NCBI GenBank assembly: GCA_029007645.1
Contig: JAQXIE010000061.1
Span: 1 to 48,998 of the forward strand
DNA length: 48,998 nt
From: Bacteroidales bacterium
GTDB lineage: Bacteria > Bacteroidota > Bacteroidia > Bacteroidales > Muribaculaceae
Direction: 5' to 3'
Every line of letters begins with the position of its first letter. Position 1 is the first letter of the stretch. Shown here in pieces: positions 2,230 to 48,998 of the stretch. The notes under the pieces were generated by a model. The model did not search any database, was not told the DNA's origin, and saw only the letters and a program-made list of their open reading frames with translations. The position numbers and the translations under genes are program-made.

Positions 2230-2233
2230 GCCA

Positions 2234-2241
2234 CAAAAATA
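2234..2241 (-). promoter_or_regulatory. -7 promoter box of the SprT-like gene
   Basis: Minus-strand TATTTTTG (TAnnTTTG match) ends 4 bases before the ATG at 2229. I see no clear -33 TTTG at the expected distance. If the box is used, transcription would begin at or next to the A of the start codon. Confidence 0.45.
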
Positions 2242-2316
2242 GTCAGTAATATGGGAATATTCGGGACTTTTCTATTAAAATTTGCAATAATAGGTTAAAT
2301 ATATGGCAAAAATCAT

Positions 2317-2324
2317 TAATTTTG
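2317..2324 (+). promoter_or_regulatory. -7 promoter box upstream of the phosphohexomutase
   Basis: TAATTTTG matches TAnnTTTG, 70 nt before the ATG at 2395; no good -33 partner is visible. The leader that would result contains an imperfect hairpin with GGACC (2340-2344) pairing with GGTCC (2362-2366). Confidence 0.4.
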
Positions 2325-2394
2325 TGTTTGAGAATAAGAGGACCTGCGGTCATCAGGCCGGGGTCCAGCCATGGAAACTAATTTATAACCCGAT

Positions 2395-4146: not shown

Positions 4147-4175
4147 TCGAATCAGTCTGAACAATAAGCATTAAC

Positions 4176-4211
4176 GGAGGGAGGATGTCACGACCGACAC
4201 CCTCCCTTTCT
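4176..4211 (+). terminator. Intrinsic terminator after the phosphohexomutase
   Basis: GGAGGG (from 4177) pairs with CCCTCC (to 4206), with an inner TGTC/GACA pairing, and is followed by TTTCTATT. The U-tract is modest. Confidence 0.7.
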
Positions 4212-4240
4212 ATTAACCGTTACATAATTTTACCCGTACA

Positions 4241-4816: not shown

Positions 4817-4900
4817 GGAACGGGACATAACCAATTGCTGGTTGAGGGTGCTTTTTAACTATTCCGGGACAGAAATCAAGGATATTCAAAAAAAAGATAT

Positions 4901-4908
4901 TATCTTTG
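4901..4908 (+). promoter_or_regulatory. -7 promoter box for the class A PBP gene
   Basis: TATCTTTG matches TAnnTTTG; no strong -33 TTTG is visible at 19-21 bases upstream. A start near 4914 would leave a leader of 11-17 nt. Confidence 0.45.
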
Positions 4909-4924
4909 CATATCGTTTTGACTG

Positions 4925-7405
4925 ATGCGTATGGCTAAAGACGATAATTTATACAATATAGACAGTCCCGACGGGTTCGACCCAAAGGCGGCGAAACGCC
5001 GTCTTCGTAACAGAAAGTTTGTGCAGTGGCTCTGGATCTGTTTCCTGAGTCTCGGCTTCTTCATTGTCCTGATGATGCTCCTGATCTATAACGGAGTAAT
5101 CGGCTACATGCCCCCCGTCGAGGAACTGGAGGACCCCCACGACAAACTGGCATCGCTGGTATATGCGTCCGACGGCACCGAGATGGGCCGGTATTTTCAG
5201 GGCACGGGCAACCGTGTCTACACCGACTACAACGGCATCTCGCCACACGTGATCAACGCACTGGTAGCCACCGAGGACGTACGTTTCCGCGAACATTCGG
5301 GCATAGATTTCAAGGCTCTGGGCCGAACGATGGTCAAAACCCTGATAATGGGCGACAAATCTGCGGGCGGAGCCTCGACCATTACCCAGCAGCTTGCCAA
5401 GCAGCTTTATTCCCAACCGTCGTCGAACATTGTGAAACGCGCCCTGCAAAAACCGATCGAGTGGATGATCGCCGTCAAACTCGAGCGGTTCTACACCAAG
5501 GACGAGATTGTGAACATGTACCTCAACCGGTTCGACTTCCTCCACAACGCCGTGGGCATCAAGACAGCGGCCAACGTATATTTCGGCAAGGAGCCCCGCG
5601 ACCTGAACATTCAGGAAGCCGCGATGCTGGTGGGAATGCTTAAGAATCCGAGCTATTACAATCCTCTTCGTCACGAAGAGAGGACATTGTCGCGCCGCAA
5701 CACAGTGTTCGAGCAAATGGTCAAGGCCGGTTTTCTGACCCAGGCGGAATGCGACTCGCTGTCGCAGCTGCCGCTCGGTCTGGACTATCATAAGGTAGAC
5801 CATAAGCAGGGTGTCGCACCCTATCTGCGCGAGGAGATCAGGCGCCTGATGACTGCTAAAAAGCCGGAACGTCCCAAACGTTCGGACTACAGCACCCTGG
5901 CAGCCTATCATGTGGCCATGGGAGCATACAACACCGACTCCACCGCCTGGGAGGAGAATCCGCTGTACGGATGGATATTGAAAAATCCGAAGCCCGACGG
6001 CAGTTATTACGACCTCTACACCGACGGACTGAAGATCTACACGCCGATCGACCTGACGATGCAGCGTTATGCCGAAGAGGCTGTTTACGAGCATCTCGGA
6101 GGCTATCTGCAGCCGGCGTTCGAGAACGAGAAAAGAGGATCGCGCACGGGGCCTTATACCACCAATCCCAACGAGCTCAGCGCCCAGGGCGTACAGAAAC
6201 TTATCAAGAACGCACTGCGGCAGACCGAGCGCTGGCGCACCATGAAGGCCTCGGGATCATCCGAGGAGGAGATAATGCGCGAGTTCCATACGCCCTATAC
6301 GATGGACGTATTTGCCTATGTACGCAAGACCACCAAGGAAAACGGCAAAAAAGTGACGAGGATCGTACCCGGTACTAAAACCGTCAAGATGACCCCTTAC
6401 GACTCGCTGCTCTATATGAAGACCATTCTGCGCACGGGAATCATGAGCATGGACCCGGCCAGCGGATTCGTCAAGGCATATGTGGGAGGACCCGATTTCG
6501 CACACTTCCAGTACGATATGGTGTCGCGTGGAAAACGTCAGATCGGATCGACGGCCAAGCCGTTCCTCTACACGCTGGCCATGGAACAGGACTATACGCC
6601 CTGCTCGATGTTCAGCAACACGCAGCCGGTGTTCGGCAACTGGGCGCCCCGAAATTCCAGCCGCGCACGCGTGGGCGAGATGGTCGACCTGCGGTGGGCG
6701 CTGACCAACTCGAACAACTGGATATCCGCCCGACTGGTCAACGAGCTTACACCCGGCGCGCTTGCCAACAAGATGCGCATGTTCGGAATCACGGGCTATA
6801 TCGATCCGGTATTGCCGTTGTGCCTCGGGACTGTAGATGTGCCTGTGGGACAGATGGTAGGCGCCTTCACGGCATTCGCCAACCGTGGAATCCGCGTCGA
6901 TCCCGTACTGGTGACCCGCATCGAGGACAATCAGGGCAATATGATTTATTCGGCGGTGCCCCACCGCACGGAGGTGATGAGCGAGGACGCCTATTACAAG
7001 ATTGTCTCGATACTGCTTAACGTAGTAGACAGCGGTACGGGCGCAAGCCTGCGCAGCCGTTACGGAATCTCAGCCGAAATGGGCGGAAAGACCGGTACGA
7101 CCAACTCCAACTCCGACTCATGGTTCATGGCGTTCACGCCCGACCTGGTGACCGGCGTGTGGGTAGGCGGCGAGGAGCGTTACATCCACTTCAACTCCAT
7201 GGCCTTCGGCCAGGGTGCCCGGGCTGCACTCCCCATCTACGGTCTCTTCATGAAGAAAGTTTACTCAGATAAGAAATTACCATATTCCCAGGATACCAAA
7301 TTTGAATTCCCCGACGGTTTCTCTCCTTGCAACAATGGCGAAGGACCTGTGGTACATACCTCGTACGTCGAAGAATCGGAAACCGGAGCCGGTGTGTTTG
7401 ACTAA
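4925..7405 (+). CDS. mrcA: Class A penicillin-binding protein (PBP1A type)
   Basis: 826-aa bifunctional cell-wall synthase anchored in the inner membrane, polymerising lipid II and cross-linking stem peptides in the periplasm. A short cytoplasmic segment (residues 1-35) precedes one TM helix (about 36-58). The GT51 glycosyltransferase domain follows, with TEDVRFREHSGID and the GGASTITQQLAKQL motif. The transpeptidase domain has SxxK at S542-K545 (STAK), SxN at S596-N598 and KTGT from K722. All catalytic motifs are intact. The start may be ATG 4925 or ATG 4931 (MAKDDN); neither has a clear ribosome-binding site. Long insertions between the two domains are usual in Bacteroidota homologues. Confidence 0.96.
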   Translation: MRMAKDDNLYNIDSPDGFDPKAAKRRLRNRKFVQWLWICFLSLGFFIVLMMLLIYNGVIGYMPPVEELEDPHDKLASLVYASDGTEMGRYFQGTGNRVYTDYNGISPHVINALVATEDVRFREHSGIDFKALGRTMVKTLIMGDKSAGGASTITQQLAKQLYSQPSSNIVKRALQKPIEWMIAVKLERFYTKDEIVNMYLNRFDFLHNAVGIKTAANVYFGKEPRDLNIQEAAMLVGMLKNPSYYNPLRHEERTLSRRNTVFEQMVKAGFLTQAECDSLSQLPLGLDYHKVDHKQGVAPYLREEIRRLMTAKKPERPKRSDYSTLAAYHVAMGAYNTDSTAWEENPLYGWILKNPKPDGSYYDLYTDGLKIYTPIDLTMQRYAEEAVYEHLGGYLQPAFENEKRGSRTGPYTTNPNELSAQGVQKLIKNALRQTERWRTMKASGSSEEEIMREFHTPYTMDVFAYVRKTTKENGKKVTRIVPGTKTVKMTPYDSLLYMKTILRTGIMSMDPASGFVKAYVGGPDFAHFQYDMVSRGKRQIGSTAKPFLYTLAMEQDYTPCSMFSNTQPVFGNWAPRNSSRARVGEMVDLRWALTNSNNWISARLVNELTPGALANKMRMFGITGYIDPVLPLCLGTVDVPVGQMVGAFTAFANRGIRVDPVLVTRIEDNQGNMIYSAVPHRTEVMSEDAYYKIVSILLNVVDSGTGASLRSRYGISAEMGGKTGTTNSNSDSWFMAFTPDLVTGVWVGGEERYIHFNSMAFGQGARAALPIYGLFMKKVYSDKKLPYSQDTKFEFPDGFSPCNNGEGPVVHTSYVEESETGAGVFD

Positions 7406-18653: not shown

Positions 18654-18731
<78 letters not shown>

Positions 18732-34968: not shown

Positions 34969-36741
34969 ATGTTTATTCAACCCATCAAAATTAAATCGCT
35001 CTTCACGCTGATTGTGCTCTTACTCGGCACTCTAAACTTGTCGGCCCAACGCGAAAAGAACTACATCTACTTGTTTGATTGCACGTGGTCTATGAAAAAA
35101 AATGGATTATGGGATCCTGCACAATCTGCTTTGAATAGCAACATTGCCCTTCGCGCATCAATCCCGGGTTCTCATTTCACGGTTATCCCGTTTGGTGATA
35201 ACCCTTACGATGTTTTTTCATTTGACAATGGGAATTATGCTACTAATAAACAAGCCATCGGCAATGCGTTTGATAAGTATATCAATCAAGCTAAATTCAC
35301 CAACATATCCGATGTCTTAAAATCCGGCTTCCAAAAGGTCGATTCAAAAAAAGATAACGAAATTTATCTTTTTACTGACGGCATGCCGAATAACACGGAC
35401 TCTCCGAGCCGAGTTGCCCAGACAATCAGAAATTGGTGCGCCAGTCACCGCAACTCCAAACTGTATTATGTTGCATTGACCAAAGGGGTTATCAACCCCG
35501 TGATAAAGCAAGCAATCGATGAATGCTCCGACGCTTCTATCGTGCAATGCGAAAATGGTGTAATTCCCATAATTACAACTGTTTCCAATGACATTTATAC
35601 CAATTTGGAGGAATTGGGCTCTGGAATTGAAACATCATTCAGCATTCCGGGCAGTCATAGCATATCAGCATCGACGACTGATAGTAATTTTGATGCATCT
35701 GTAGCCGGCAATAAGACGTCAAATGGAAAATTCACTTTAAGAATTTGTTCCAGAGAAAATCTTACAACTGACCAACTACACCAACTACTGCAAGGCGAAG
35801 AATATGAGTTCCCGGTTACGGTCAATTGCCTGGACAAACGTTTTACAATCGTCAATCCCATTATCAATGTTCATGTCTCTGATGAAGTGCCATCTAAACT
35901 CACATTAGCCGGTGGAGTCGATGAGATACAGACCGATGGAGTGAAGTGGTATGACTCCTTTCTTTGGAGTGACGCTGCGCCTGATAAAAAAGTTGTCTGG
36001 GACTTGGCTCCTGTATTCAAGAACGAGCTTCATAATTCAAGACTTGAACTTAGATTTTCAATTCCCGAACGAGAAACCAATGATTTTCAAGTCTGGTATA
36101 ACGGCCATGCGATAAGCAATGGTCAAACCATATCAATTTGCCCAAATCAACCGGCTTTGTTGGAAGTTCAATTCAATCACGATGCCCAGACCGGTAAAAG
36201 ATATTTCTCTTTGATACCGTCAAGAATTGACAACCTTAACTTTATAAACGACCAGCCGACTGAAGAATACCAAGGCACCTCACTTCGCACAGATTATAAT
36301 GTCGGGTGGAACCCATTAAAGACATTCTTATTATGGCTCGGCATTATTTTGCTTGTTGCGTTAATCTTATGGTTCGCCATATTAAGGCGCATATTCTTTC
36401 CTCCGATTAAACTGAGCAAGATCACAATAACCGGTCCAGGCTCATATTATTCCTCTAAAAAGATTAGAGGCGCCCGCAAAGCAATACTTACTTCCAAACG
36501 TAAATCTCAGAATATATTTTCAAGAATTTTCACCGGCGAGATTAAGTACATCATTGCAGAGCATTTATCTCCGGAACTTTCCATTGTACCTGCAGGAGGT
36601 AAGAGGAAAGTAAAATTACGATATGAATCCAGGCAGATTAATCCTTGGGAAATATATCCATCTTCTATATTCGGACAATACGAAAAAGGAACAATGACCA
36701 ATAAGGTCACAAATGACAAGTCCGATATAGAATTCAGCTGA
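34969..36741 (+). CDS. Membrane-anchored extracytoplasmic vWA-domain protein
   Basis: 590-aa protein. Signal peptide residues 1-26 (FTLIVLLLGTLNLSAQ) lead directly into a von Willebrand A domain (about 30-210). Its MIDAS metal motif is D37-T39-S41 (DCTWS, a DxTxS variant), with a second TDG loop in YLFTDGMPNNTD. Residues 215-445 are beta-rich and Ig-like in appearance. One TM helix at about 449-470 (FLLWLGIILLVALILWFAIL) is followed by a basic cytoplasmic tail of about 120 residues. The vWA domain thus faces the periplasm and the tail could contact the tubulin-like protein encoded 25 bp downstream. vWA domains bind protein partners through the metal site. Exact role unknown. Confidence 0.85.
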   Translation: MFIQPIKIKSLFTLIVLLLGTLNLSAQREKNYIYLFDCTWSMKKNGLWDPAQSALNSNIALRASIPGSHFTVIPFGDNPYDVFSFDNGNYATNKQAIGNAFDKYINQAKFTNISDVLKSGFQKVDSKKDNEIYLFTDGMPNNTDSPSRVAQTIRNWCASHRNSKLYYVALTKGVINPVIKQAIDECSDASIVQCENGVIPIITTVSNDIYTNLEELGSGIETSFSIPGSHSISASTTDSNFDASVAGNKTSNGKFTLRICSRENLTTDQLHQLLQGEEYEFPVTVNCLDKRFTIVNPIINVHVSDEVPSKLTLAGGVDEIQTDGVKWYDSFLWSDAAPDKKVVWDLAPVFKNELHNSRLELRFSIPERETNDFQVWYNGHAISNGQTISICPNQPALLEVQFNHDAQTGKRYFSLIPSRIDNLNFINDQPTEEYQGTSLRTDYNVGWNPLKTFLLWLGIILLVALILWFAILRRIFFPPIKLSKITITGPGSYYSSKKIRGARKAILTSKRKSQNIFSRIFTGEIKYIIAEHLSPELSIVPAGGKRKVKLRYESRQINPWEIYPSSIFGQYEKGTMTNKVTNDKSDIEFS

Positions 36742-36766
36742 ATAATTATTAAAGACATATATAACT

Positions 36767-39556
36767 ATGGCAAAACTAAGAAGAACTCTTCTTATAGGAC
36801 TGGGAGGTACGGGTATCAAGGCAATACTCAATGCCAAGAAAATGTTCTATGAGAATTATGGGCAAATTCCGCCCATGATCGGGTTTATAGGGATGGACAC
36901 CGATAAGCCGGGGTTGAGCAATGCTTCTGTGACTGCTAACGACGGTACAAAGATCACGCTCAACAAGTCAGAACAGCTTTGCATCTCGGTAGACACTCCT
37001 ACAGCGATCTATTTCAACAATCAGGCAAAACATTTGTTTGACTGGATGCCAGAATGCAATGTACAGGGTCTTACTGCACTTTCAATCGGAGCCGGAGCGA
37101 TGCGAAGCAATGGCAGGTTTGCTGTGACTGTCAACGAATTAAACGTCAAATCGTTTATAAACAACAAAATCACAGAAATCAACAATGCTTCCATAATTGA
37201 CAATGTTGACTACGATCTTCTTAGCTCTGAAACGGAAGTCCACATGGTGTTCTCATTAGGTGGCGGAACCGGGAGCGGTACATTCCTTAATACCGCTTAT
37301 CTTATCAAGCGGATGTATCCCACAATCAAGCTGTCGGGATACGCCGTTCTGTCTGATGTTTTCCGCAATATGGCTACCGGAGCCATGACTGCGCGTGTAA
37401 AGACCAACGGCAAAGGTGCGATTATCGACCTCGATTACCTCGCACACCTCACACCTGATTCAACTCCTGTTGAAATAAAATGGCTTCGTGATAAGGATAA
37501 CGTCAACTACCGTCCGTTTGACGCTTTGTATTTCATTGACAACTCCAATGGAAACAATGACATGTTCAACCATGTCGATCCGCTGTGCGAAATGATTGCT
37601 CTTGCCATCGTTACCTCTGTAGGAGAGTTGGGTGTCGCTCTCGCATCGGTCAGCGATAATGTCAGCAAACTTATAGCTGACGGTGCAATGGACATCAAAA
37701 ACAAGAAAGCATGGGTCGCCGGCTTTGGCTGCGCCGAAATCATATTCGACGGCAAACGCCTGGCTAAAATATATGCCCGCAAGGCTGAAGCACAGCTTAT
37801 CAACAAGATGCTCAACGGTGGCTGCGATGACCCGACAACTATTGCCAACAACTGGTTTGACAATACCAAAATCCGAGAAAACCTCGGTAAAGATGATGTC
37901 ATAGACTATTTTATGACTCCTATGCCGCAGCACATTTTCAGTGACCTGGATGATCCTGAAAATCCGGAATCTGAATGTCTCCAATACGTGGCTAATCGCG
38001 CAATGGAGCCACAGGCTAAACTCGACGAGAAACTCACAGACCTCGAAGCTCGTGTTGATGAGGCCCTAACTCGCTTAATGAGCGAGCAAGCTAATAGAGA
38101 GTGCGGAATACATCTCTGCCAGCAGATTCTTCTTTCCATTCTTCATCAAATCGAACTTTGCGATGGTGAAATGAAAGATGAAAAAGAGCACCTTGAAGTT
38201 GAAATGCCCAGATTGGAATCTGGCCTCAAGACTGCTTGCAAGGAGTTGGCCGAATGTATGAGCACATTCTTCAAGCGTAATCGTAAAGACTATGAGACAG
38301 AGGTGGTAAACCAGACTATGAAACTCGCAGTTGCTCAGCGCGAAGTGGCACGTCGGAAAATGGCTATCCAATTCTACTGCTGGCTTAAAGAGCGGGTAAA
38401 TCAGTCCATCAGCAGAGTTGACATCATAATCAACAATCTCCAAACCGTCAGAAACGAATGCAGCTCCGATGTACAGCGAATCTTACGTTCGAACGAAGGC
38501 CGCAGTTTCTTTCAATTTGACTTGTCGGCAGACTATGCCAACAAAGTTGAATGTCCTATGAACGACATCGTGTTTAACGATTTCGCAAAAGATATGCAGT
38601 CGGATGGAGGCATAGCCTCTCTCGCCGGACTTACATCCAAGCAAACAGAAGAAACGCTAATGCGATTTATCCATACGCTTCCCAGAGTCAAGGAATACAT
38701 GACAATGACTGTTGACGATGCATTGGATAAACTTTCGGACGATGAACTAAAGAAGCTCATCGGGAAAGCGGTAAAAAAATCACTCCCGTTGTTGCCGTAC
38801 ACGCTTCGTGGCTTCGATGCAGACCTCCGCGAAAGACCTGTTGAATGTTACTATATTGGCATAGCCAATAAGAACCGTTCACGTCTTACCAAAGACAACC
38901 TGTTCCAAAACATAGTTCCCGACGCCAAAGACATTCAGTTCTCTGAAGTCGGTCTTGACAATAGGATCATCATCTACCGTCAACTGGGTGTCGTTCCTGC
39001 CTTTACGGTCAAAGCTCTCGACAGCTATGAAGCCGAGTACGAACGTTGGGAAAATGACAAACATGCCGGTTCACATTGGGACAAGAACCTTTGCAAACGC
39101 ATGACAGAAGAACGCTTCAATCTTTCCCCGAAAGACGAAGTGTCAACGACTCATCTGTTGGAAACCTGGATAAACGCCATCATCTTAGGTCTGATCAAAT
39201 TTGATAGCACGTCCAATAAGTACCAAATCAAAAGCCGTGGAATGGGGGGACGTGCACTCAAGGGATGGATGGTTGAAATGGGCTTCTCTCGTCAGGACGC
39301 GTTCCGTTATCTTGAAGACAATATCGATGTCCTCGGAGCTGAGATTCGCCAAGCCATTAATGATATGGACGTTCCCGGCCCGGAAAATCCCATCAGAACC
39401 CTCTCGGAGAAAGCCGTGAAGGCGTGCCAGGACAACACCTATCTCCAGGAAGTCTCTCAATGCCCCATCTCAATGGAAAACATCGAGTACTATCCGGCAG
39501 AAATGGACTTAATCGAAAAAGAAATCGAATACATTTTAGACAATATCGCTAAATAA
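36767..39556 (+). CDS. FtsZ/tubulin-like GTPase (Tubulin_2-like) with coiled-coil extension
   Basis: 929-aa protein. The N-terminus has the nucleotide-binding loop IGLGGTGIKAI (residues 10-20). The hallmark tubulin/FtsZ signature is GGGTGSG at 165-171, preceded by a hydrophobic strand (VHMVFSL). These two elements place it in the FtsZ-tubulin superfamily, most likely the divergent Tubulin_2 group seen next to vWA proteins. The GTPase part spans about residues 1-400. A long helical, coiled-coil-rich region (about 410-575) and a further roughly 350-residue region of unknown fold follow. No membrane segment. It probably polymerises on the cytoplasmic face of the membrane (inference). Its TAA is directly abutted by the ATG of the next gene. 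Confidence 0.85.
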   Translation: MAKLRRTLLIGLGGTGIKAILNAKKMFYENYGQIPPMIGFIGMDTDKPGLSNASVTANDGTKITLNKSEQLCISVDTPTAIYFNNQAKHLFDWMPECNVQGLTALSIGAGAMRSNGRFAVTVNELNVKSFINNKITEINNASIIDNVDYDLLSSETEVHMVFSLGGGTGSGTFLNTAYLIKRMYPTIKLSGYAVLSDVFRNMATGAMTARVKTNGKGAIIDLDYLAHLTPDSTPVEIKWLRDKDNVNYRPFDALYFIDNSNGNNDMFNHVDPLCEMIALAIVTSVGELGVALASVSDNVSKLIADGAMDIKNKKAWVAGFGCAEIIFDGKRLAKIYARKAEAQLINKMLNGGCDDPTTIANNWFDNTKIRENLGKDDVIDYFMTPMPQHIFSDLDDPENPESECLQYVANRAMEPQAKLDEKLTDLEARVDEALTRLMSEQANRECGIHLCQQILLSILHQIELCDGEMKDEKEHLEVEMPRLESGLKTACKELAECMSTFFKRNRKDYETEVVNQTMKLAVAQREVARRKMAIQFYCWLKERVNQSISRVDIIINNLQTVRNECSSDVQRILRSNEGRSFFQFDLSADYANKVECPMNDIVFNDFAKDMQSDGGIASLAGLTSKQTEETLMRFIHTLPRVKEYMTMTVDDALDKLSDDELKKLIGKAVKKSLPLLPYTLRGFDADLRERPVECYYIGIANKNRSRLTKDNLFQNIVPDAKDIQFSEVGLDNRIIIYRQLGVVPAFTVKALDSYEAEYERWENDKHAGSHWDKNLCKRMTEERFNLSPKDEVSTTHLLETWINAIILGLIKFDSTSNKYQIKSRGMGGRALKGWMVEMGFSRQDAFRYLEDNIDVLGAEIRQAINDMDVPGPENPIRTLSEKAVKACQDNTYLQEVSQCPISMENIEYYPAEMDLIEKEIEYILDNIAK

Positions 39557-42500
39557 ATGTCTTCATCCGTCACTATCTGGACATCCTCATCGACGGCACA
39601 CAGTCAGTCTCGGGTTGCGCAAATTATACGCGCAGCCCGGCTGGCTGATGCCGTCCATGATACTATTTCGATGGCAGGACTTTCTACACCTGAGATTGTA
39701 GAGAATCTTAATAAAGTTTTTAACAGATCTATTACAATGACGATGTCAGATCCAACTCTGCACATCGTTGCTGTAATTCCTCTTTATGAAGAAGATGCTG
39801 CACAGCATATTCAAACATTATACGATGCCTGCACATCGTTTGAACATAATTTCAGCCTCCATATTTTAGGCCTGGCTCCAGCGATCAGCCATATTTTCGA
39901 AACCAAAGAGAATGTACAGAACGAAAAAGAGGCTTTTGAAAAATCTCATATTCTCCTCAAAGACCTTGGTAAAAAATCATCAATAGGATTATCATATTCT
40001 ATAATTGATGATTACGCCGAGAACGGCGCACCGATTGGATTCACACTGGAAAGCTTATCACGCTATATCGCCACCTTTCAGGTTGCCTTAATGCAAGACT
40101 ATTACAAAATACTGTCGCCTGCATTACTGACTGCTCATCCGGGAGATAATTTGGCGATTGGAATTTCGACTCTCTCATTCAATCGGGAAGCTGTGGCACA
40201 ACAAATGCTTGGTCTCAGTTTTCTTGAAGCACTTGACAACGTCGGTATTAATAATAAAGAAGTTGATGCTCAAAAAGCTGTTCGTGAAGCTGAGTCATTT
40301 TTGGCCGGTATAGCAAATCGATATCCTGATTTATACGAGAGATCCATCAAACAGCTCTATAAAGACCGTGGTATTGACGAAGGTCAAGTTATTGCTAACG
40401 CTTCTTCAATTTTAGATGAAGATCTGGATAATCTAAAAAATGAGATACTTTCATTATTAAATAAGGAGTCCCTGTCTCTACCCGAAAGAGAAGCCGTACT
40501 GGCACTGATATTGGGAAGGGATAACGAATACCTCCGAGGGATGCAATATGAGCATGAAGGTTCTCTGTTAGACGATGCTTGCGAAAAGCCCATAGATCTT
40601 TATGTTGATGCATTCAATCACTGTTGCAAGGATTCCAAAGCTTTGCCTGTAAGGGGTGATTATGAGGCACTAAAGAAATTCAAGTGGAATGAATCCACTG
40701 AAGAATTTGAAGAAAGTTCCGAAAATTCCGAAGCGTTCAATCCACTTTCGGATATAAAGCGGCTGAAACAGGAAATCATAAACACAACTTCTTTCATTCG
40801 CGATAAGAACGACGAATTATCGGGTATTCAAAATTCGGTCCAGCAACGCCAGGATGCCGAAGAAATAAAAAGGAAGTGGCACAAGCCTAAAGGGTTATTG
40901 AAAGATGTTGATTACAAAGAGCAGCCGCTTGACGATCAATACATACCATCTCCGGGACTAAAGATTAAAGAGACGGTAGATTTGAGAAAATTCTTTACGC
41001 CTGTCAAAAATCAATTGGATCTCGGTTCATGTACCTCATTTGCTGCTGTGGCTATGTATGAGGCCATGATGAACCAAGTGGGCGTAGAAGGTGCTCACGA
41101 CATGAGTCCGGCATATTTGTATTATTATTCAAATATACTTAAAGGAAGACCCGCCGGTGGAAGTAATTTTTACGAGCAACTGGAAGTTCTCGGAAAGCAC
41201 GGCGTATGCCACGAAAGTCTATATGTTTATGATACCGATAAGCCGGAAGCCAAGCCCTCCGAACAAGCAGATGATGATGCAAAAGAGCATAGGGTAATTG
41301 CGGCTAAGCAAATTCCATTGATCGATGAATTAGATAAATCAGAGACACTGAAACGTAATCATACAATCTTAACAAGTGCACTTTCGGAGGGATATCCAAT
41401 AGGAATTTCTCTCAAGGTATATGACAACCTGGGTAAAGACGGAGCATTCATTCTGCACCCTGACGATTCGCCCAATGCTAAAGAAGACGGGTGGCATGCA
41501 ATGGTGATTGTGGGTTATTCGGAAGAAAACAATTTCTACATCGTTAGAAATTCCTGGGGTACTGATTTTGGAGAAAACGGCTATTGCTACATTCCCTCCG
41601 CATATATTGACGACCCCGATTATATGAACTTCGCCTGTATTATTACCGAAATAAGCGATAATACAGACGGTAATAAAACTGACGTACCGACTGTTTTGGC
41701 AAATTTCGCTGCAACCGAAACCGAAATTCGTATTGCTGCCATAAGAAATGCCATTGCTAAAATGCGCATTGACCTAAAAAACAGCCAAAAACTATATTCT
41801 GAATATTACAAATATTATCAGAAACTAATAAACCAACTGACAATCCCCCAGATACAGAACAATATTCGTTCGGCTGCCGAAATTGCTCAAACAATAAATT
41901 ATATAAACGTTGACGAAAGGAAACGCCAACTTGAAGATTCCTTCGTCGGTAAATTCAAAGATTATAAGAACTATCTAAAGAAAATTATAATCGCCCTTTC
42001 AATTTCAGCTCTTGGATTGGGAGGTGGGGCTTATTTCAGCAGGAGTGTAGTGGTGTTTATTATTTTCGTCATTTTTGTTATGCTTTGCGCTCTCACAATT
42101 GGCGGCTACAAGTGGTGGAAAAAGATTAAACGCAACCAACTGCAAGAAGAACTTGACAATGTAGCAGTTGAAGCTATGCGTCAGGCCGACCAACTGCTTG
42201 AAATGCAAATCAATTTTCATGTAGCGGGCATGTGGTTACAACGTTTTCATAAGCTTTCGATTGAAATTGGAAATGTGTACGACCGCCTTGCAAGCTACAA
42301 CAACACGTTAAGAGCATGGCAAGAATCCTATTCCAGACAAATAGGCAGTCCTGAAATTCCTGAAGGACAAATGTTTCGTGTCCTTGATGCATCCCCAATG
42401 CTACAAGAGTTCTTTGCACAAAACAAATCGTCAATTGTCAATGAAGTTAATCTTATAGAACTTTTTGACAATTATACAGCCAATCCGAACAGTCTCGAAA

Positions 42501-42838
42501 AATCTCATCAAGAGATAAAGGATTCAGTCATGTCTGTCATTAATAATCTTATGTCTGATTTTAATATGGCTAATTTCTTACTTGGCCATAGTTATCCCTA
42601 TTTAAATCAGATAAAAACAGCTGACGAATTCTACACATTACTTAATGTCGGGCAACCGTCATATCGTAATCGGGCTATGAACGCGACCACCCCTATTTTC
42701 ATTGTTATGACAAACGTAGGCGTTGAAATGGAAAATCAGTGGATTAACAACACCGCAATTTTATTTCCGATGCGACCGATCCTTTTAAATTCAGAGGATA
42801 GTACAACGCTCATAGTCCTAACTATCCATCCCCAGTAA
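39557..42838 (+). CDS. Papain-like cysteine protease with transmembrane hairpin
   Basis: 1093-aa multidomain protein. Residues 1-250 look like an alpha/beta domain (HIVAVIPLYEEDAAQHIQTL, SLHILGLAP), function unknown. Residues 250-470 are helical and charged. Residues about 465-690 form a C1A papain-type peptidase with all catalytic residues: VKNQ..GSCTSFA with C492, GWHAMVIVGY with H647 and VRNSWGTDFGENGY with N665. Two adjacent hydrophobic helices (about 809-828 and 831-853) form a membrane hairpin. Lacking a signal peptide, both ends probably face the cytoplasm. The C-terminal 240 residues are helical then beta-rich. It directly abuts the tubulin-like gene, implying coupled expression and partnership. 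Confidence 0.85.
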   Translation: MSSSVTIWTSSSTAHSQSRVAQIIRAARLADAVHDTISMAGLSTPEIVENLNKVFNRSITMTMSDPTLHIVAVIPLYEEDAAQHIQTLYDACTSFEHNFSLHILGLAPAISHIFETKENVQNEKEAFEKSHILLKDLGKKSSIGLSYSIIDDYAENGAPIGFTLESLSRYIATFQVALMQDYYKILSPALLTAHPGDNLAIGISTLSFNREAVAQQMLGLSFLEALDNVGINNKEVDAQKAVREAESFLAGIANRYPDLYERSIKQLYKDRGIDEGQVIANASSILDEDLDNLKNEILSLLNKESLSLPEREAVLALILGRDNEYLRGMQYEHEGSLLDDACEKPIDLYVDAFNHCCKDSKALPVRGDYEALKKFKWNESTEEFEESSENSEAFNPLSDIKRLKQEIINTTSFIRDKNDELSGIQNSVQQRQDAEEIKRKWHKPKGLLKDVDYKEQPLDDQYIPSPGLKIKETVDLRKFFTPVKNQLDLGSCTSFAAVAMYEAMMNQVGVEGAHDMSPAYLYYYSNILKGRPAGGSNFYEQLEVLGKHGVCHESLYVYDTDKPEAKPSEQADDDAKEHRVIAAKQIPLIDELDKSETLKRNHTILTSALSEGYPIGISLKVYDNLGKDGAFILHPDDSPNAKEDGWHAMVIVGYSEENNFYIVRNSWGTDFGENGYCYIPSAYIDDPDYMNFACIITEISDNTDGNKTDVPTVLANFAATETEIRIAAIRNAIAKMRIDLKNSQKLYSEYYKYYQKLINQLTIPQIQNNIRSAAEIAQTINYINVDERKRQLEDSFVGKFKDYKNYLKKIIIALSISALGLGGGAYFSRSVVVFIIFVIFVMLCALTIGGYKWWKKIKRNQLQEELDNVAVEAMRQADQLLEMQINFHVAGMWLQRFHKLSIEIGNVYDRLASYNNTLRAWQESYSRQIGSPEIPEGQMFRVLDASPMLQEFFAQNKSSIVNEVNLIELFDNYTANPNSLEKSHQEIKDSVMSVINNLMSDFNMANFLLGHSYPYLNQIKTADEFYTLLNVGQPSYRNRAMNATTPIFIVMTNVGVEMENQWINNTAILFPMRPILLNSEDSTTLIVLTIHPQ

Positions 42839-43103
42839 ATATCTGACGACCATAGCATGATTTTCTACAGACCTTCTTGATGCGCAGGGTTAATTTCAAA
42901 TCATCGCACCCCATTACTCCTTATAACAAATTGAATTTCAACAGCTTCATAGCACTCTTATAAATTTTTAGTGGACACTAATGTAATAGGTTAAAAGTAG
43001 ATATCAAGGACTTATAGCATCCTACCACACTGAATAAATAAGGTTGAGTTATTAATAATTCGGGATTTATCGTTTACATTTTTAATGTGAATGATATTAA
43101 GAA

Positions 43104-45548
43104 GTGAATCAAACTTACGAAAGACGAATGCACGACAATTTAAAGCTGACAAAGCTCTTCCATATCGATGATGCCTTCAGGAGACTATCTTCTGATACAA
43201 CTTATATCGGCATTGATTTTGGCACCAGCACCACAGTAGTGTCTCTGGCTACATATAATATGCTCACCGGAGAAATAGAGTGTGAGAGTATGCAATTGCC
43301 ACAGAAGGATAAATACGGTAATGCAATGGAAGGGGAACTCTTCCCTACAGTGATTGCCGTTAATGCAAATGACGGCAAACCTATTTATGGACAAGGTGCA
43401 TATGATCTCAAATGGAACCATGACTACACTTTCGGTGTTAATCTTTGGCATTCATTTAAGATGGAGCTTGGCAAAGATTTAGGGCCACGATGGTATGAAA
43501 GCCAGCAGAGCAAGATAAAATCCCCGCAGGATGCTACGAAGATGTTCTTTAAGTTCTTGAAACGGTCAATCGAGAAGACGGTGCGAGAGAGGAACTTGCC
43601 CCAGAATATTAAGTATGCGATCAGTATACCCGCATCATTTGAGAGCAACCAACGCAAAGACCTTCTTGAAGCATTGAAAGCAAATGAAATTATTGTAGAT
43701 GGTTCTCTATTCATAGATGAGCCAAATGCAGCATTTATCGGCTATATCAATAATCCAGAGTGTCAGCCCATTGAACTGAAAGCAGAATACAATCCGAAAG
43801 TGCTTGTGTTTGACTTCGGTGCAGGGACCTGTGACCTCTCTCTTCTTGAGATTACTGCGGATCATCAAGGCCTCCACTCCAACAATCTCTCAATCTCCCA
43901 GTTCGCAGAATTAGGAGGCAATGACATCGACAGGTACATCTCTCATAATTATCTCTTGCCACAGCTTCTTAAAGCAAACGATCTTGCAGGAGATAATGAT
44001 TTCCTGACAACTAAACAGAAGGAAGTAATCGCGAATCAGCTTCTTGGGGTAGCTGAGAACATGAAGAAAAGACTCTGTAACGAGGACTTTAACTTTCTTC
44101 TCTCCGAACCCGACATTATGAATGAAGTCGTTGCTGCCGGCCATGGTATCACGATAGAGACACCGGATCTTCAGATTCCCACCAATAATGGAGTTCTTAA
44201 GATTCAGAAGCTATGGTTGAGCTATGCCGATTTCATCGAAACGATGAAAGTCTTCTTCAAAAAATCATTATTCACTAATCATAGTGCTTATACTATCAAG
44301 GGCCAACAGAAGAAATACAATAGTATTCAATCGGCCATTGATACCGCTCTCCAAAAAGCTCATGTCAATAAGGATGAAGTTGACTATGTGATTATGATCG
44401 GAGGCAGTTCTAAAAACCCCTTCGTTCAACAGAAGATTAAGAGTTATTTTTCTGACGCAACGGTAATGGTACCACGCGAACTACAAGCACTGGTATCGCA
44501 AGGTGCCGCTTTGCATTCAATTCTGAACAATGGGTTTGGGATACAAGCTGTACGACCCATTGTTGGTGAATCTATAATTGTGGTCACTCAAAATGGCAAT
44601 GCCCCTATAATTTCAGCAGGAACAGAAGTCCCATTCGAGACTTCGATTGACGATGCATTCTCGACTGGAGGTAAGAAATATAAAGAAATAGAAATTCCAG
44701 TTTGCGTTGGTAATGATAAGAAGCTGCTATATAATCTCCATCTAACTCGCCAGAATAACGAGATTTTTCCGGAGAATACACCGGTTTCTCTGCATTTCGA
44801 AATGGACGCAGACAAAATCCTGGTTGTTAAAGCCAAGGCAATGGGAGAAGAGTGGGAAGCGAAATGCGAGAATCCTCTTGACAATGCAGCCATGACGGAT
44901 GGAGAGGCAAAAGTACTTAAAGCCCAACGAGCAGCATATATCTCAGCAGAAAATAACAATCACCGACCTACTTCAAAATCCCTTGATGCGCTTTGCCGCG
45001 CCTATGAGGATAATAATCAGTATTTTTTGGCTGGAGAGATATTGGAAGAACGAATTCAGTACTACCCGGATGCATCACTTTACAATCGTATAGGTGTACT
45101 GTTTCATAATAGCGGGGTTTACAATCGAGCAATTGCCAATTTTCGGGAGGCTGTAAAAAGAGATCCCAACAATGCTGTTGTCCTAAACAATTTAGGACAT
45201 GACCTATACATAATTGGCAAGACTAAGGAAGCAAGAGAATATGTGGAGAAAGCGGTCAATCTACGCGGTGATTATGCTATTGCATTAGTCGTACTCGGCC
45301 GTATCGAAGCAATAGATAAAAATGAAGAAAAGTCAAATGAGGATTTCAGGCGAGCGTTCAATATTTTTACGCGACGTTGGAAATCTAATGATCTGGATGA
45401 TTGTGAGAAAGGATGGTTCAAGTCCGTGGCTAATGAACTGAAAGAAACAGAAACATATAATCAACTTACGCAGGAATTACGTAATAGCACCCTGTCTAAA
45501 GGCTATTCTTTGGAGAATACTCTATTCGGTTCACATGATAAGATATAA
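43104..45548 (+). CDS. Hsp70 (DnaK-like) ATPase fused to TPR repeats
   Basis: 814-aa protein. The Hsp70 nucleotide-binding domain has phosphate-1 GIDFGTSTT (36-44), phosphate-2 VFDFGAGTCDLS (from 235) and adenosine motif IGGSSKNPFV (from 432). A beta-rich substrate-binding-like region follows (about 500-600, with GTEVPFETSIDDAFSTGG). TPR repeats occupy about 657-760 (ASLYNRIGVLFHNSGVYNRAIANFREAV, AVVLNNLGHDLYIIGKTKEAREYVEKAV). The start is GTG 43104 or, eight codons later, ATG 43128. It is not the housekeeping DnaK: the lid is replaced by TPRs and no dnaJ/grpE lie nearby. It heads a second, tightly packed group of four genes after a 265-bp gap without an obvious promoter match. Confidence 0.88.
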   Translation: MNQTYERRMHDNLKLTKLFHIDDAFRRLSSDTTYIGIDFGTSTTVVSLATYNMLTGEIECESMQLPQKDKYGNAMEGELFPTVIAVNANDGKPIYGQGAYDLKWNHDYTFGVNLWHSFKMELGKDLGPRWYESQQSKIKSPQDATKMFFKFLKRSIEKTVRERNLPQNIKYAISIPASFESNQRKDLLEALKANEIIVDGSLFIDEPNAAFIGYINNPECQPIELKAEYNPKVLVFDFGAGTCDLSLLEITADHQGLHSNNLSISQFAELGGNDIDRYISHNYLLPQLLKANDLAGDNDFLTTKQKEVIANQLLGVAENMKKRLCNEDFNFLLSEPDIMNEVVAAGHGITIETPDLQIPTNNGVLKIQKLWLSYADFIETMKVFFKKSLFTNHSAYTIKGQQKKYNSIQSAIDTALQKAHVNKDEVDYVIMIGGSSKNPFVQQKIKSYFSDATVMVPRELQALVSQGAALHSILNNGFGIQAVRPIVGESIIVVTQNGNAPIISAGTEVPFETSIDDAFSTGGKKYKEIEIPVCVGNDKKLLYNLHLTRQNNEIFPENTPVSLHFEMDADKILVVKAKAMGEEWEAKCENPLDNAAMTDGEAKVLKAQRAAYISAENNNHRPTSKSLDALCRAYEDNNQYFLAGEILEERIQYYPDASLYNRIGVLFHNSGVYNRAIANFREAVKRDPNNAVVLNNLGHDLYIIGKTKEAREYVEKAVNLRGDYAIALVVLGRIEAIDKNEEKSNEDFRRAFNIFTRRWKSNDLDDCEKGWFKSVANELKETETYNQLTQELRNSTLSKGYSLENTLFGSHDKI

Positions 45549-45551
45549 ATT

Positions 45552-46727
45552 ATGAAGTGGTTGCCAGGAGAAAACGATTTGGTAAAAGAGCAGACTGACT
45601 TTCGAAGCAAAGTTTGGTCTGAATCCGGGAATGTGTATGTTTCCGGATTCCCAGGCTCAGGAAAAAGTGTGTGTTTACTTTATGCAGTAAAGACGATTCG
45701 AGATAAAAAACCTGACGCGAAGATTCTTTTTGTAGAGTTTACCCATGCTCTTATTAAGATGATCGAAGCGGCCCTCGAGGAATTGCATCTAAATAATGTT
45801 CCTGTGGTCACTTATAATGATTTCAGACGAAATTACAACGACCATTATGATTTTATAATCTGTGATGAAGTTCAGGACACATCAGCTCCACTTCTGCATC
45901 TGATGAAGCAAAGAGCCACACGGGTTATTGTCGGCGGCGATCCCAATCAATCAATTTATGAGAAATTGCCAGGGAACGAAGAGCCCACCGTTGGTCCTGA
46001 AGAAATGAAAAGGATACTTACACCAAGTACCACGGAATTAACCATCCTGCATAGGCTCAACAAATATATCATTCGAGGAATAAATAGTTTTTTCCCTCAG
46101 ATGCACATCCTCGCCGAGAAATCCTCTATGCTGAAAAAACATAAGCCAGCTTATGTCTGGCATTGTGCAGATCAGAAAGATGAGGTGAAACGGATTATGA
46201 ATGATGCTAAAAACGCTCTGAATTTTGGCGAAAGTGTTGCCATCCTCTTGCCTAACCATAATAAGATAGAATCATTTGTAAATTTATATCTGGAAGCATG
46301 CGGAGTTGAATCTTTCGACTTTTCCAGAAACCGTCAATATGGTAAACCAAACTATGGCTTACTTAATGAGTATCTTGCAAAGAATAATATTAAAATGCAA
46401 TCCATCACCAACGGTTTTGGTTCTCTGGTAACAGACAGCGACAAGATTATTCTATCTACATATCATAGTTCAAAAGGGCTCGATTTCGATAAGGTCTTCA
46501 TGCCATTCTGCAATGAGTCATATAATGAAGATGCTCGTTTGTTCATGGTTGCGATGTCGCGTAGCCGCAAAGATCTCATCATCTCGTATACCACAACTAT
46601 GAATCGGTTTGTGAGAAAATTCTACAATAATAAAGAGGCCTGCCAGTTTGTTGATTATCCAGACATGGCAAAAGGTCCCACTATATTTGGTAACAATAAT
46701 GCCTCAGACGAGGATGAAGATTGGTAA
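45552..46727 (+). CDS. Compact UvrD-type SF1 helicase-like ATPase
   Basis: 391-aa ATPase carrying SF1 helicase motifs in a very small frame. Walker A GFPGSGKS is at 32-39. Motif II ICDEVQD follows, with D105 and E106. Motif III GGDPNQS spans 128-134, and motif V is STYHSSKGLDFD (302-313). Motif VI is VAMSRSRKDLIISY (333-346). UvrD-type helicases are usually 650 aa or more; here the 1B and 2B accessory domains appear absent. Such short forms may act as nucleic-acid-responsive switches or translocases rather than processive helicases (inference). It begins 3 bp after the Hsp70-TPR stop and ends 6 bp before the next gene. The acidic tail (ASDEDEDW) may mediate protein contacts. Confidence 0.87.
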   Translation: MKWLPGENDLVKEQTDFRSKVWSESGNVYVSGFPGSGKSVCLLYAVKTIRDKKPDAKILFVEFTHALIKMIEAALEELHLNNVPVVTYNDFRRNYNDHYDFIICDEVQDTSAPLLHLMKQRATRVIVGGDPNQSIYEKLPGNEEPTVGPEEMKRILTPSTTELTILHRLNKYIIRGINSFFPQMHILAEKSSMLKKHKPAYVWHCADQKDEVKRIMNDAKNALNFGESVAILLPNHNKIESFVNLYLEACGVESFDFSRNRQYGKPNYGLLNEYLAKNNIKMQSITNGFGSLVTDSDKIILSTYHSSKGLDFDKVFMPFCNESYNEDARLFMVAMSRSRKDLIISYTTTMNRFVRKFYNNKEACQFVDYPDMAKGPTIFGNNNASDEDEDW

Positions 46728-46733
46728 ACAACT

Positions 46734-47735
46734 ATGGTACAATATAATCATATCGCATTAGTCAGACGCGACGAGGTGATTGAGCTTTTCAAGAATGGAT
46801 GCTTATTCCCTCAGTCCACAATACAATTTACCGGTTCCTTGGCTGCATTAGCCAAGAAACCGAAGGATGTCTTGAAAATTTTCGAGAAGACACCAGTTAT
46901 TGAGTATAGCATCAATTACTTCATGCTTTACTTTCGGACTGAGAATAAATCTTTGAGCAAGGGCCTGAAGTATAGCGATCTTATTTCTATCATCCCTCTC
47001 GATGAAGATGCGGAGCGTATGGGATTGTCATTATCCCCCCAAGTAAAACTCGAACGCCCTATCTTCCAGCAGGCATATCTGTTGTACTTGCAGAAATCAG
47101 CAATCAATAACGCAATTAAAGGCGTAGAAAACATTGGGGTTATTTTCGGATATGATGACTTGCAGACATCAATAAAGAAAGTGACAAAGAAGATAATCGG
47201 CACATGGGTAAATCTTATTTTGGATGAGGAAGGGAAAACGAGTCCCAAGACAATCTGGGAATTCCTTCTTACTTATGTAAGAAGTCAAACATATCCTAAT
47301 GGGACTGCTGGAGCATTCCTTGACACCATGTCTGTCGTTCATAACTTCACCAAAGGCAGGGATGAGATGAAAGACCAGAAATGCACCACTACAGGGCGAT
47401 TAATCCTGGAGATCTCTAAGCCAACTTATAGCCAGCTGACAGAATGTCTTGCCCAGTCTTCAAATTTTACTAAAGCTGCAGACAAGGGATATAAAGGGTT
47501 CTGGAAGATTGCCCCAATGTACTTCATATTGCTCGATAAGTTGAGTACGGCATCCGAAGATGGCACTTATATCGGCAATACACCTTTAAATGAATTTGTA
47601 GCCAGCGTAAGGACTCACTATGATGAGGACATTCTCAAACCGGCTCTCTTCTTGGTGGGGATCACTCTTGGCCAATCAAGCACATATAAGATGTTATACG
47701 CCATAAAGAAAGGAGAATTACCTTTTTTGATGTAA
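46734..47735 (+). CDS. Unrecognised 333-aa protein of the island
   Basis: I do not recognise this protein. It has no signal peptide or clear membrane segment and looks soluble and mostly helical. Features include an N-terminal HIALVRRDEVIELFKNG, a charged FRTENKSLSKGLKYSDLI stretch, SAINNAIKGVENIGVIFGYDDLQ, and a C-terminal LFLVGITLGQSSTYKMLYAIK. Its position, 6 bp after the SF1-like ATPase and 20 bp before the small membrane protein, indicates it belongs to the same transcription unit. It may be a target-recognition or adaptor subunit; that is inference only. Confidence 0.75.
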   Translation: MVQYNHIALVRRDEVIELFKNGCLFPQSTIQFTGSLAALAKKPKDVLKIFEKTPVIEYSINYFMLYFRTENKSLSKGLKYSDLISIIPLDEDAERMGLSLSPQVKLERPIFQQAYLLYLQKSAINNAIKGVENIGVIFGYDDLQTSIKKVTKKIIGTWVNLILDEEGKTSPKTIWEFLLTYVRSQTYPNGTAGAFLDTMSVVHNFTKGRDEMKDQKCTTTGRLILEISKPTYSQLTECLAQSSNFTKAADKGYKGFWKIAPMYFILLDKLSTASEDGTYIGNTPLNEFVASVRTHYDEDILKPALFLVGITLGQSSTYKMLYAIKKGELPFLM

Positions 47736-47755
47736 TCGATGTTTACATTAGGAAT

Positions 47756-48190
47756 ATGAAATATATAGTCATAATACTTGCGGTGATGTGGCTGTTTAGC
47801 TATGTCAAGTTTCGGAAGAAATGGAAGATGGATCGGATGATGTGTGAGTTTACACGTCACTTATATGATGAGGATTCTGGCGATCCAATGACTGCCATTG
47901 AGTATGGCAGCGCATTGATGCAGGCTCAGCAATACAAGAGTGCCTTGACGATGTTCGAGGGTATTAAGCGACGTGTTGCGATGGCAAGTACATTATATCC
48001 TTTCTTGGATGCCAACATTGAGTTTTGCAAAAAGCCGCTCCCGTGGAGTAGTTGCGCGAAAGACCATAAGGGCGGTAGTTGGTGGCATAACTTCCAGCTT
48101 GTCCGTTTCGGTGGTCGCCGTCAGGTAGCCATATCACAGCAGACCGGTCTTGCGTTTAATTCAATGCTCCGAATGATGAACCGACGCTAA
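47756..48190 (+). CDS. Small membrane-anchored protein with TPR-like helices
   Basis: 144-aa protein with an N-terminal TM helix (residues 3-17, YIVIILAVMWLFSYV) and a basic flank (KFRKKWK), so the rest is probably cytoplasmic. Residues about 40-75 (DPMTAIEYGSALMQAQQYKSALTMFEGI) resemble one TPR or Sel1-like hairpin. The C-terminal half (SWWHNFQLVRFGGRRQVAISQQTG) is unfamiliar. It is the last gene of the plus-strand group, and its TAA overlaps the stop of the converging CHAT gene. It may tether the Hsp70/ATPase module to the membrane (inference). Confidence 0.7.
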   Translation: MKYIVIILAVMWLFSYVKFRKKWKMDRMMCEFTRHLYDEDSGDPMTAIEYGSALMQAQQYKSALTMFEGIKRRVAMASTLYPFLDANIEFCKKPLPWSSCAKDHKGGSWWHNFQLVRFGGRRQVAISQQTGLAFNSMLRMMNRR

Positions 48191-48998
48191 TTCAGTAGGA
48201 CGAACGCTGCCCATTTATCGGGGCTATATCCCTTTTCTCGGAGAGCTCGTTGAGCAACGACAAGAGCGTCATCCGGCTCACGACCGGCGATTAGGCCACG
48301 GTAGAATTCAGTCATCAGTTCTGCTGTGGCTTTGTCATCCACACTCCATAGACTCATCAATACGCTCTGCGCTCCAGCTAACTTAAAGGCTCGCTGCAAA
48401 CCATACACTCCTTCAGAGTTATATTCTCCAAGGCCTGTCTGACATGCGGAAAGCACTACGAGACGACATCCGCTCAGATCTAATTTTGATATTTCATCAG
48501 CACGGAGAATGCCATCGGCGTCATTGATAGAAGATGGAAGACTTTCTGACATCCAATATTTTTGAGAATTTGCAAAGAGCAATCCTGCATTTTGCATAGG
48601 ATTGGTGAATGTTCCGGAATCATGAAAAAATCCATGAGTCGAGACATGGAGTATATAGTCCTTCTTACCGGAGCGAGAAATAAACGATTTTTCGGTTGCT
48701 GATGTTCCGGATATAACCTTGGGATGATTACCTTTGGAACTCAACAGCAGTGCAATGTCATTTACTTCTTTCAATGAATTAGGCAACTTCCCAAGCATAT
48801 CGCCACGCATAATGCCTCTCGTTTCCGATATTACGTCAACTACAGTATCCATTAAACCATATTCGACGCCACCCCAGAGTATGGAATTTTTAGCCATCAT
48901 ATTCAGTTTATCAGATGATTTGATGGCCGGGATTTCTGTAGGCGAACCAATAACATGAATTTGGGCAATGTCGGCAAATATATGTCCGTAAGCGTCAA
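48187..48998 (-). CDS. CHAT-domain (caspase-like) protease, N-terminus beyond window
   Basis: The frame is open from the TAG at 48187 to the right edge, so about 270 C-terminal residues of a longer protein are visible. An internal ATG at 48900 is not the true start, since the frame continues upstream in conserved-looking sequence (IAQIHVIGSPTEIP). The CHAT fold is clear: ILHVSTHGFF with the catalytic His (codon 48636-48634), LVVLSACQTGLGE with the catalytic Cys (codon 48444-48442), then AGAQSVLMSLWSVDD, TAELMTEFY, and a C-terminal WAAFVLLN. CHAT proteins are clan CD proteases, often with TPRs ahead of the domain and often in defence or cell-death loci. It converges on and overlaps the end of the island gene group. 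Confidence 0.92.
   Translation of the reverse strand, partial: DAYGHIFADIAQIHVIGSPTEIPAIKSSDKLNMMAKNSILWGGVEYGLMDTVVDVISETRGIMRGDMLGKLPNSLKEVNDIALLLSSKGNHPKVISGTSATEKSFISRSGKKDYILHVSTHGFFHDSGTFTNPMQNAGLLFANSQKYWMSESLPSSINDADGILRADEISKLDLSGCRLVVLSACQTGLGEYNSEGVYGLQRAFKLAGAQSVLMSLWSVDDKATAELMTEFYRGLIAGREPDDALVVAQRALREKGYSPDKWAAFVLLN

Follow-up and report, generated by a model that had tools for sequence, protein, structure and literature searches.

We analyzed a stretch of 48,998 nucleotides (nt) from a Bacteroidales bacterium of the Muribaculaceae (contig JAQXIE010000061.1), hereafter the window, which spans the whole of contig C61 in a draft genome of 2.0 Mb. Three adjacent genes in it, encoding a membrane vWA protein, a Tubulin_2 GTPase, and a papain-containing protein, form a conserved Bacteroidales operon, which we term VTP. 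Our tentative reading is that VTP forms a membrane protease gated by vWA and scaffolded by the tubulin, with immunity a somewhat likelier purpose than envelope upkeep, standing in this region beside two independent cassettes, and we give this reading as a whole a probability of about 0.42. The nearest named relatives are recorded as metagenome-assembled genomes (MAGs) of Porphyromonadaceae, Bacteroides, or Muribaculaceae. The three genes, with lengths in amino acids (aa) and Pfam E-values, are as follows.

34969..36741, plus strand: VTP gene 1, vWA protein, 590 aa (VWA, 2.7e-6)
36767..39556, plus strand: VTP gene 2, Tubulin_2 (FtsZl1-type) GTPase, 929 aa (PF13809, 4.2e-48)
39557..42838, plus strand: VTP gene 3, scaffold protein with C1 papain domain and hydrophobic hairpin, 1093 aa (PF00112, 2.7e-19)

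The tubulin gene lies directly upstream of the papain gene in all 30 distinct Bacteroidales loci, the window included, and is preceded by a vWA gene in 29 of them, the exception being a contig of genome G022 that starts 199 bases before the tubulin gene. The 30 loci (L numbers below) combine the matches within the genus, a scan of 84,980 species, from which loci were taken from the best 80 of 152 confirmed matches, and a survey of 297 genomes of the family, with repeat genomes removed; L100/L240, the other half of the G406 locus, and L238 and L239, which have no papain and where the contig ends, were left out. The vWA gene is split into two pieces in L104, L105, L229, and L231, and that of L098 was hidden behind an antisense frame in gene calling and was revealed by tblastn. 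In the window, the vWA and tubulin genes are 25 nt apart and the tubulin and papain genes 0 nt. A further 62 loci (L106-L167) had no vWA or tubulin match, and 61 of them matched the papain profile only.

Within the genus, the full papain protein was found in 7/111 genomes, with 15 others matching over the papain stretch only. Full-length tubulin matches came from the same seven genomes (7/101 relatives, own genome included), and distant partial matches only were seen in four other genomes as well as at second places in G033 and G054. In the family survey, 170 of 297 genomes had some match to the papain protein and 21 matched in parts of it outside the papain domain; G288 and G242, both among the 21, are without papain in the contig piece examined. 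At the level of the order, tubulin matches occurred in 9/344 genomes, at full length in the own genome and in G458. Two other tubulin arrangements were encountered: a MAG of Alistipes has, after its papain gene, another tubulin of smaller size (744 aa; L105, 13337-15571), and L047-L050 represent another type of Tubulin_2 locus in the genus, with a tubulin of ~1020 aa, small secreted proteins, and no papain.

The vWA protein consists of an N-terminal hydrophobic segment, the vWA domain, a second hydrophobic segment, and a conserved C-terminal tail of ~120 residues. A simple scan placed the hydrophobic segments at residues 1-19 and 445-463 of this protein and at 810-828 and 831-849 of the papain protein, as well as at 277-295 of the tubulin, inside its GTPase domain. 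A periplasmic vWA domain and a membrane hairpin would fit these segments. A metal-binding-type motif (D37-x-T39-x-S41, DxSxS type) is present, and in an alignment of 31 rows D37 was kept in 26, T111 in 27, and D137 in 28. The remaining rows have a gap or a different residue at these positions, and some of those rows represent C-terminal fragments of split genes.

The tubulin retains its phosphate-loop glycines (G167 and G171 in all 41 aligned rows, T168 in 40) and two asparagines (N214 in 41, N259 in 38); asparagines at such positions of tubulins bind guanine. The T7 loop is the tubulin motif for GTP hydrolysis, and an argument for hydrolysis by this loop was set aside because the alignment is unsure there and the columns vary. 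A profile search with the tubulin found 1221 proteins, 120 of which were listed. A tree built from 41 N-terminal domains unites the 31 papain-linked rows with that of G458 (93/98), apart from nine others, and the papain-linkage label requires two changes compared to a mean of 9.2 after shuffling. Finer placement is unsure because of several long branches, and the fork is drawn open.

In the gene 3 protein, papain is the sole domain recognized by Pfam (PF00112, 70.6 bits, cut-off 20.7). It spans residues ~470-690 and sits, together with the hairpin at 810-849, between conserved N and C parts, the scaffold. The active site of C1 papains comprises Gln, Cys, His, and Asn; Q486, H647, and N665 were found in 30/30 rows and C492 in 29/30, the sole exception being L236 (8994-12251), whose papain protein carries serine at the catalytic cysteine position. 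A profile search with the protein found 97 proteins, and solved papain-type proteases align over the papain stretch only among the matches listed (60 rows), one row starting at 396. The scaffold also occurs without papain. G242 encodes a natural 585-aa version lacking the papain and hairpin stretch (L239, 5143-6900; independent E-value (iE) 1.6e-26 for the N part and 2.1e-42 for the C part). The same is probably true of G458 (L215), where the gene following vWA and tubulin encodes a protein, X, that matches the N part only (iE 8.7e-5, hhalign 1.5e-4); among 84 genomes, X had no relative besides itself.

Faint profile similarity hints that the scaffold could be a tubulin relative that has degenerated, for which we put the odds at about even or a little less. 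Among 28 pairs formed from eight slices, the best E-value joined the scaffold N part to the tubulin N domain (0.00099) and the second-best the scaffold C part to the tubulin C domain (0.0019), in matching order, with the next pair at 0.03. An earlier comparison with fewer rows had given 0.015 (N) and 0.021 (C) versus 0.19 to 0.9 for the five remaining pairs. In an enlarged comparison using 125 and 161 sequences, 60 column shuffles, and 60 block shuffles, the N score was 35.7 versus maxima of 26.8 (column) and 32.9 (block). If the kinship is true, VTP would represent a bacterial pairing of GTP-binding and non-binding tubulin-like proteins with a protease built in. A corresponding device for immunity, with a vWA sensor in the membrane that would trigger the GTP-binding tubulin and a GTP-free tubulin relative carrying the papain domain and membrane hairpin to co-assemble, switching the protease on, appears unlikely to us in this full form.

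In the broader reading that we prefer, VTP is a predicted membrane-tethered protease scaffolded by a tubulin-like GTPase. Judging from the hydrophobic segments, the vWA domain would lie outside the inner membrane and the tail inside. A signal at the vWA domain, for example envelope damage or phage entry, could pass through the tail to the GTPase, which would then assemble at the membrane and bind the scaffold of the third protein, and the protease concentrated in this way might cleave host or invader proteins. A gated membrane protease fits the fixed and tight linkage of the genes, the membrane segments, the GTPase, and the protease, and the retained tubulin, vWA, and papain motifs and the occurrence of the scaffold without papain also speak for this reading. 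Immunity against phages or other invaders would be its likelier purpose, compared to envelope upkeep, because of a brxL context in Thermales, a CRISPR-like/Csx1 setting in G054, and the scattered presence of the operon. The defence role raised in the first-pass annotation of this DNA is kept as a possibility.

A tblastn search of 72,556 plasmids with the tubulin returned four records, three of them Thermales, each covered over ~36% of the query, and Meiothermus proteins used as queries brought up a fourth Thermales plasmid. The gene order vWA, tubulin, third gene, brxL is found on the plasmids of Meiothermus, Thermus oshimai, and Allomeiothermus, and in Allomeiothermus brxL is preceded by an insertion sequence. 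On the plasmid of T. thermophilus SNM3-3, the third gene and brxL were seen after a tubulin of which just the end is left, and vWA was not seen. As the next gene after brxL, Allomeiothermus and T. thermophilus have a DrmD/DrmA/HmaA/BrxH-type helicase, and T. thermophilus also has a DrmMI-like methyltransferase; Meiothermus has a winged-helix gene and T. oshimai an exonuclease gene after brxL. Upstream, Meiothermus carries an HmaC/DUF499-like gene two genes before vWA, and T. oshimai has sugar-transport and TROVE genes. The Thermales proteins match those of the window at E-values of 1.3e-50 (N) and 4.2e-11 (C) for the tubulin and 7.1e-20 for vWA, and the third gene is without papain. This version beside brxL offers a concrete phenotype to examine, namely phage restriction.

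In G054, a CRISPR-like array stands beside VTP (L041, ~1187-7121; L042, 3773-5170), with 19 places that share a core and are ~70 nt apart within runs; farther off on the other side of VTP are bactofilin-like, SPFH/zinc-ribbon, and Csx1-type genes. On other plasmids, a tubulin-like gene adjoins two caspase-family genes and OmpA genes (Azospirillum sp. TSA2s p2; L252, 7674-14638), and an OmpA gene lies near the tubulin of a Deinococcus radiophilus plasmid.

Several results weigh against our interpretation. None of the three VTP proteins had a PADLOC match better than E 0.01, and the candidate homology of the Thermales third protein to the scaffold was unsupported (E 0.45). For the kinship of scaffold and tubulin, the C score of 29.9 exceeded the column-shuffle maximum of 24.7 and was itself exceeded by a block shuffle (31.1), HHsuite probabilities were 23% (N) and 5% (C), and searches of scaffold hidden Markov models against single tubulin sequences and the reverse gave no domain that scored above 8 bits, whether the set was real, reversed, or shuffled. 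In most of the Bacteroidales loci inspected, the flanks of VTP look by eye like ordinary chromosomal genes, and the tubulin has a mean column identity of 83% over the 7 genomes of the genus, a strong conservation unlike that of many immune sensors; both features weaken immunity in particular.

The conserved tubulin and the mostly ordinary flanks would suit a device of the FtsZl1-vWA type that serves the envelope or cell shape, with a papain protein that would trim proteins of the envelope or of division and with no part for immunity. We regard this alternative as a serious, if doubtful, candidate. It gains from the prediction of membrane remodelling for the same vWA and FtsZl1 core pair (PMC2875224; this and the papers cited below were covered in part, and statements on them refer to the covered text) and from the membrane segments in two of the three VTP proteins, but a presence as scattered as 7/111 genomes of the genus and 21/297 of the family is unlike that of a core device, and the brxL context in Thermales also speaks against it.

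TubZ-type tubulins act in the partition or upkeep of mobile elements. A comparable service of VTP, for which relatives on Thermales, Deinococcus, and Azospirillum plasmids and the scattered presence could be cited, is improbable: no record among the 72,556 plasmids matches over 80% of the tubulin, and no partition gene was noticed beside VTP, in flanks that were partly scanned. Among viral contigs, 45 stretches for the tubulin and 20 for protein F (see below) matched a pattern, and none was confirmed.

The region continues downstream of VTP with five further genes, the last of which is incomplete.

43104..45548, plus strand: Hsp70-TPR fusion, 814 aa, separate cassette (HSP70, 1.4e-24, plus TPR)
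45552..46727, plus strand: compact SF1-type ATPase/helicase core, 391 aa, separate cassette (Viral_helicase1, 2.7e-14; UvrD_C, 8.6e-13)
46734..47735, plus strand: unknown F, 333 aa, separate cassette (no family)
47756..48190, plus strand: unknown G, 144 aa, third unit, N-terminal hydrophobic segment (residues 1-19)
48187..48998, minus strand: CHAT protein, C-terminal 269 aa only, third unit (CHAT, 2.2e-48)

All eight open reading frames of the first-pass annotation were recovered at their positions, and its domain calls (vWA, tubulin-like, papain, Hsp70-TPR, SF1, and CHAT) agree with the Pfam profile search. Its separation of the vWA, tubulin, and papain genes from the Hsp70 and SF1 genes also holds. 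A gap of 265 nt separates the papain and Hsp70 genes, followed by gaps of 3 nt (Hsp70-SF1), 6 nt (SF1-F), and 20 nt (F-G), and G and CHAT converge with a 4-nt tail-to-tail overlap. Since the window is the whole contig and ends inside CHAT, this gene is cut, with 269 aa present here versus 874 and 888 aa in two relatives.

Genes 4 to 6 (Hsp70-SF1-F) are a second cassette, and within the genus one further genome, G150, carries it in full. There, Hsp70-SF1-F precedes G, an 888-aa CHAT gene, and another pair of genes; SF1 is 78% identical with its order conserved, and the Hsp70-TPR protein (74% identity) is, besides that of the own genome, the one full-length relative among the matches listed, the others being partial and mostly ordinary Hsp70 proteins. 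F occurs in 2/111 genomes of the genus (own and G150), in 3/297 of the family, one of them a distant fragment, and in 1/344 of the order, the own genome being counted in both surveys; its homologues amount to 59 proteins, and none was found on plasmids. G occurs in 5/111 genomes of the genus. Because both F genomes are among these five, the Hsp70 cassette is tied to the G/CHAT locus and not to the tubulin operon, and the full papain protein, F, and G come together in one genome of the genus, the own.

G and CHAT are a third unit, an anchor flanked by differing cassettes, of which Hsp70-SF1-F is one, as follows from the different neighbors in four genomes. The convergent pair recurs in G150, G109, and G102. 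In G109, G and CHAT (874 aa) are accompanied by the same two kinds of gene as in G150, one of them encoding a Peptidase_C14 protein, and only a short Hsp70 remnant; in G102, they are followed by DUF1848, vWA, coiled-coil, and helicase genes; and in G021, where only G was seen, vWA, TerY_C, PP2C, and kinase genes form a TerY-P-like set beside it. The pair (window 47756-48998; L085, L086, L242, L243) thus resembles a cassette-exchange site occupied by Hsp70-SF1-F, a TerY-P-like set, DUF1848-vWA-helicase, or a remnant. Upstream of the G109 CHAT gene, the caspase-like Peptidase_C14 gene is accompanied by one that no Pfam profile matched (L086, 2603-4872), and because of this adjacency CHAT and the caspase-like protein may act together. 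The G109 locus is met twice, on contigs C4 and C15 (L086, L087), with equal gene lengths and match scores, so that the locus is either duplicated or an artefact of the assembly.

For the downstream comparison, 20 of the other 29 VTP loci extended 3 kb or more beyond the papain gene and were searched by tblastn, the window being left out; a CHAT match was found beside VTP in one of them (L229, ~6 kb away, 40% identity). The groups occur independently, an outcome that the first-pass annotation had itself named as speaking against its proposal. That all eight genes make up one system, as originally proposed, is very hard to sustain, since adjacency here, seven genes on one strand, and similar guanine-plus-cytosine (GC) content are set against the 265-nt gap, the lack of any match to Hsp70-TPR, SF1, F, or G in these 20 loci, and the occurrence of F and G without VTP in G150 and of G without VTP in G102, G109, and G021.

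F had no Pfam, PADLOC, or NCBIfam match, and G had just a sub-cut-off rubredoxin match in Pfam. In PADLOC, F, G, and CHAT also had no match better than E 0.01, the best for Hsp70-TPR was 1.3e-4 (PDC-M61B), and SF1 matched many helicase families; NCBIfam gave no model over cut-off for any of the eight proteins. A further PADLOC scan covered 10 flank proteins from five loci, one being the G150 CHAT protein.

The description of the DNA as AT-rich is right insofar as GC content steps from 0.544 upstream in the window to 0.423 over genes 1 to 3. AT-richness is no mark of VTP, because just 18/27 measured rows were GC-poorer than their flanks (17/26 counting one twice-met genome once; one further row was dropped for short flanks, and one counted row, L215, is the papain-free relative), and a common AT-rich origin of VTP was rejected on this comparison. 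Promoter-like sites (53 versus 37.8 in shuffles, standard deviation (sd) 7.3) and terminator-like sites (20 versus 12.1, sd 3.4) are in mild excess, and the sole tRNA of the window, tRNA-His at 18654-18730, is distant from the region.

The closest known counterparts of VTP are the predicted membrane-remodelling systems in which an FtsZl1-type tubulin is encoded in an operon with a vWA protein, which in many cases bears a signal peptide or a membrane segment (Makarova and Koonin 2010, PMC2875224), a link to which the first-pass annotation had pointed correctly. Both have a Tubulin_2 protein (here passing the PF13809 cut-off at 4.2e-48) and an adjoining vWA gene (in 29/30 loci of VTP) with a metal-binding motif, here D-x-T-x-S (D37 kept in 26/31 rows), whereas their frequent, though not universal, kinases, diverged GTPase, and OmpA proteins have no Pfam counterpart among the eight genes. 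A papain partner is not described in the covered text of PMC2875224, from which the words protease and peptidase are absent. The GTPase-centric GAP1-N2 predicted conflict systems (Kaur et al. 2020, PMC7159879) resemble VTP in having tubulin genes together with vWA proteins that are extracellular and carry membrane helices, and Hsp70 belongs to another of their themes, described as not overlapping with the tubulin theme. They are built on a GAP1 GTPase, for which the eight genes gave no Pfam match, although a diverged one could escape and the contig ends past CHAT. MoxR-vWA ternary systems differ by their MoxR AAA+ ATPase, likewise without Pfam match among the eight genes.

CoCoNuT and TerY-P predicted defence loci (PMC11090510), with Hsp70-like, helicase, and TerY-P parts, share the first two with the window, and a TerY-P-like set stands beside G in G021; CoCoNuT has a McrB-type GTPase with McrC, neither of which was matched in Pfam among the eight genes, and the Hsp70 of the window is a TPR fusion beside F. 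The BREX/DISARM-like Thermales plasmid loci carry a vWA-tubulin pair homologous to that of VTP, with brxL and a papain-free third gene, whereas papain is present in the Bacteroidales loci, where no brxL was noticed in partly scanned flanks. When the top 25 PADLOC families were taken for each of the eight proteins (for SF1, the best 25 of 52), none was brxL, pglX, or a drm gene, and tubulin is not mentioned in the covered main text of a BREX survey (PMC12839542). A papain partner of Tubulin_2 is likewise undescribed in the covered text of PMC2875224, PMC7159879, PMC11090510, PMC12839542, PMC9871819, and PMC5898192, and no description of the vWA-tubulin-papain set was found in the covered text of open-licence PubMed Central papers.

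The roles found in this literature for Tubulin_2/FtsZl1 are predicted only, as membrane remodelling (PMC2875224, 2010) and conflict (PMC7159879, 2020). In gut Bacteroidales, a tubulin family of unknown function thus gains a sensor-like membrane protein and a papain-type protease as fixed partners, and since the latter has a clear protease active site, it provides the Tubulin_2 family with a directly testable activity.

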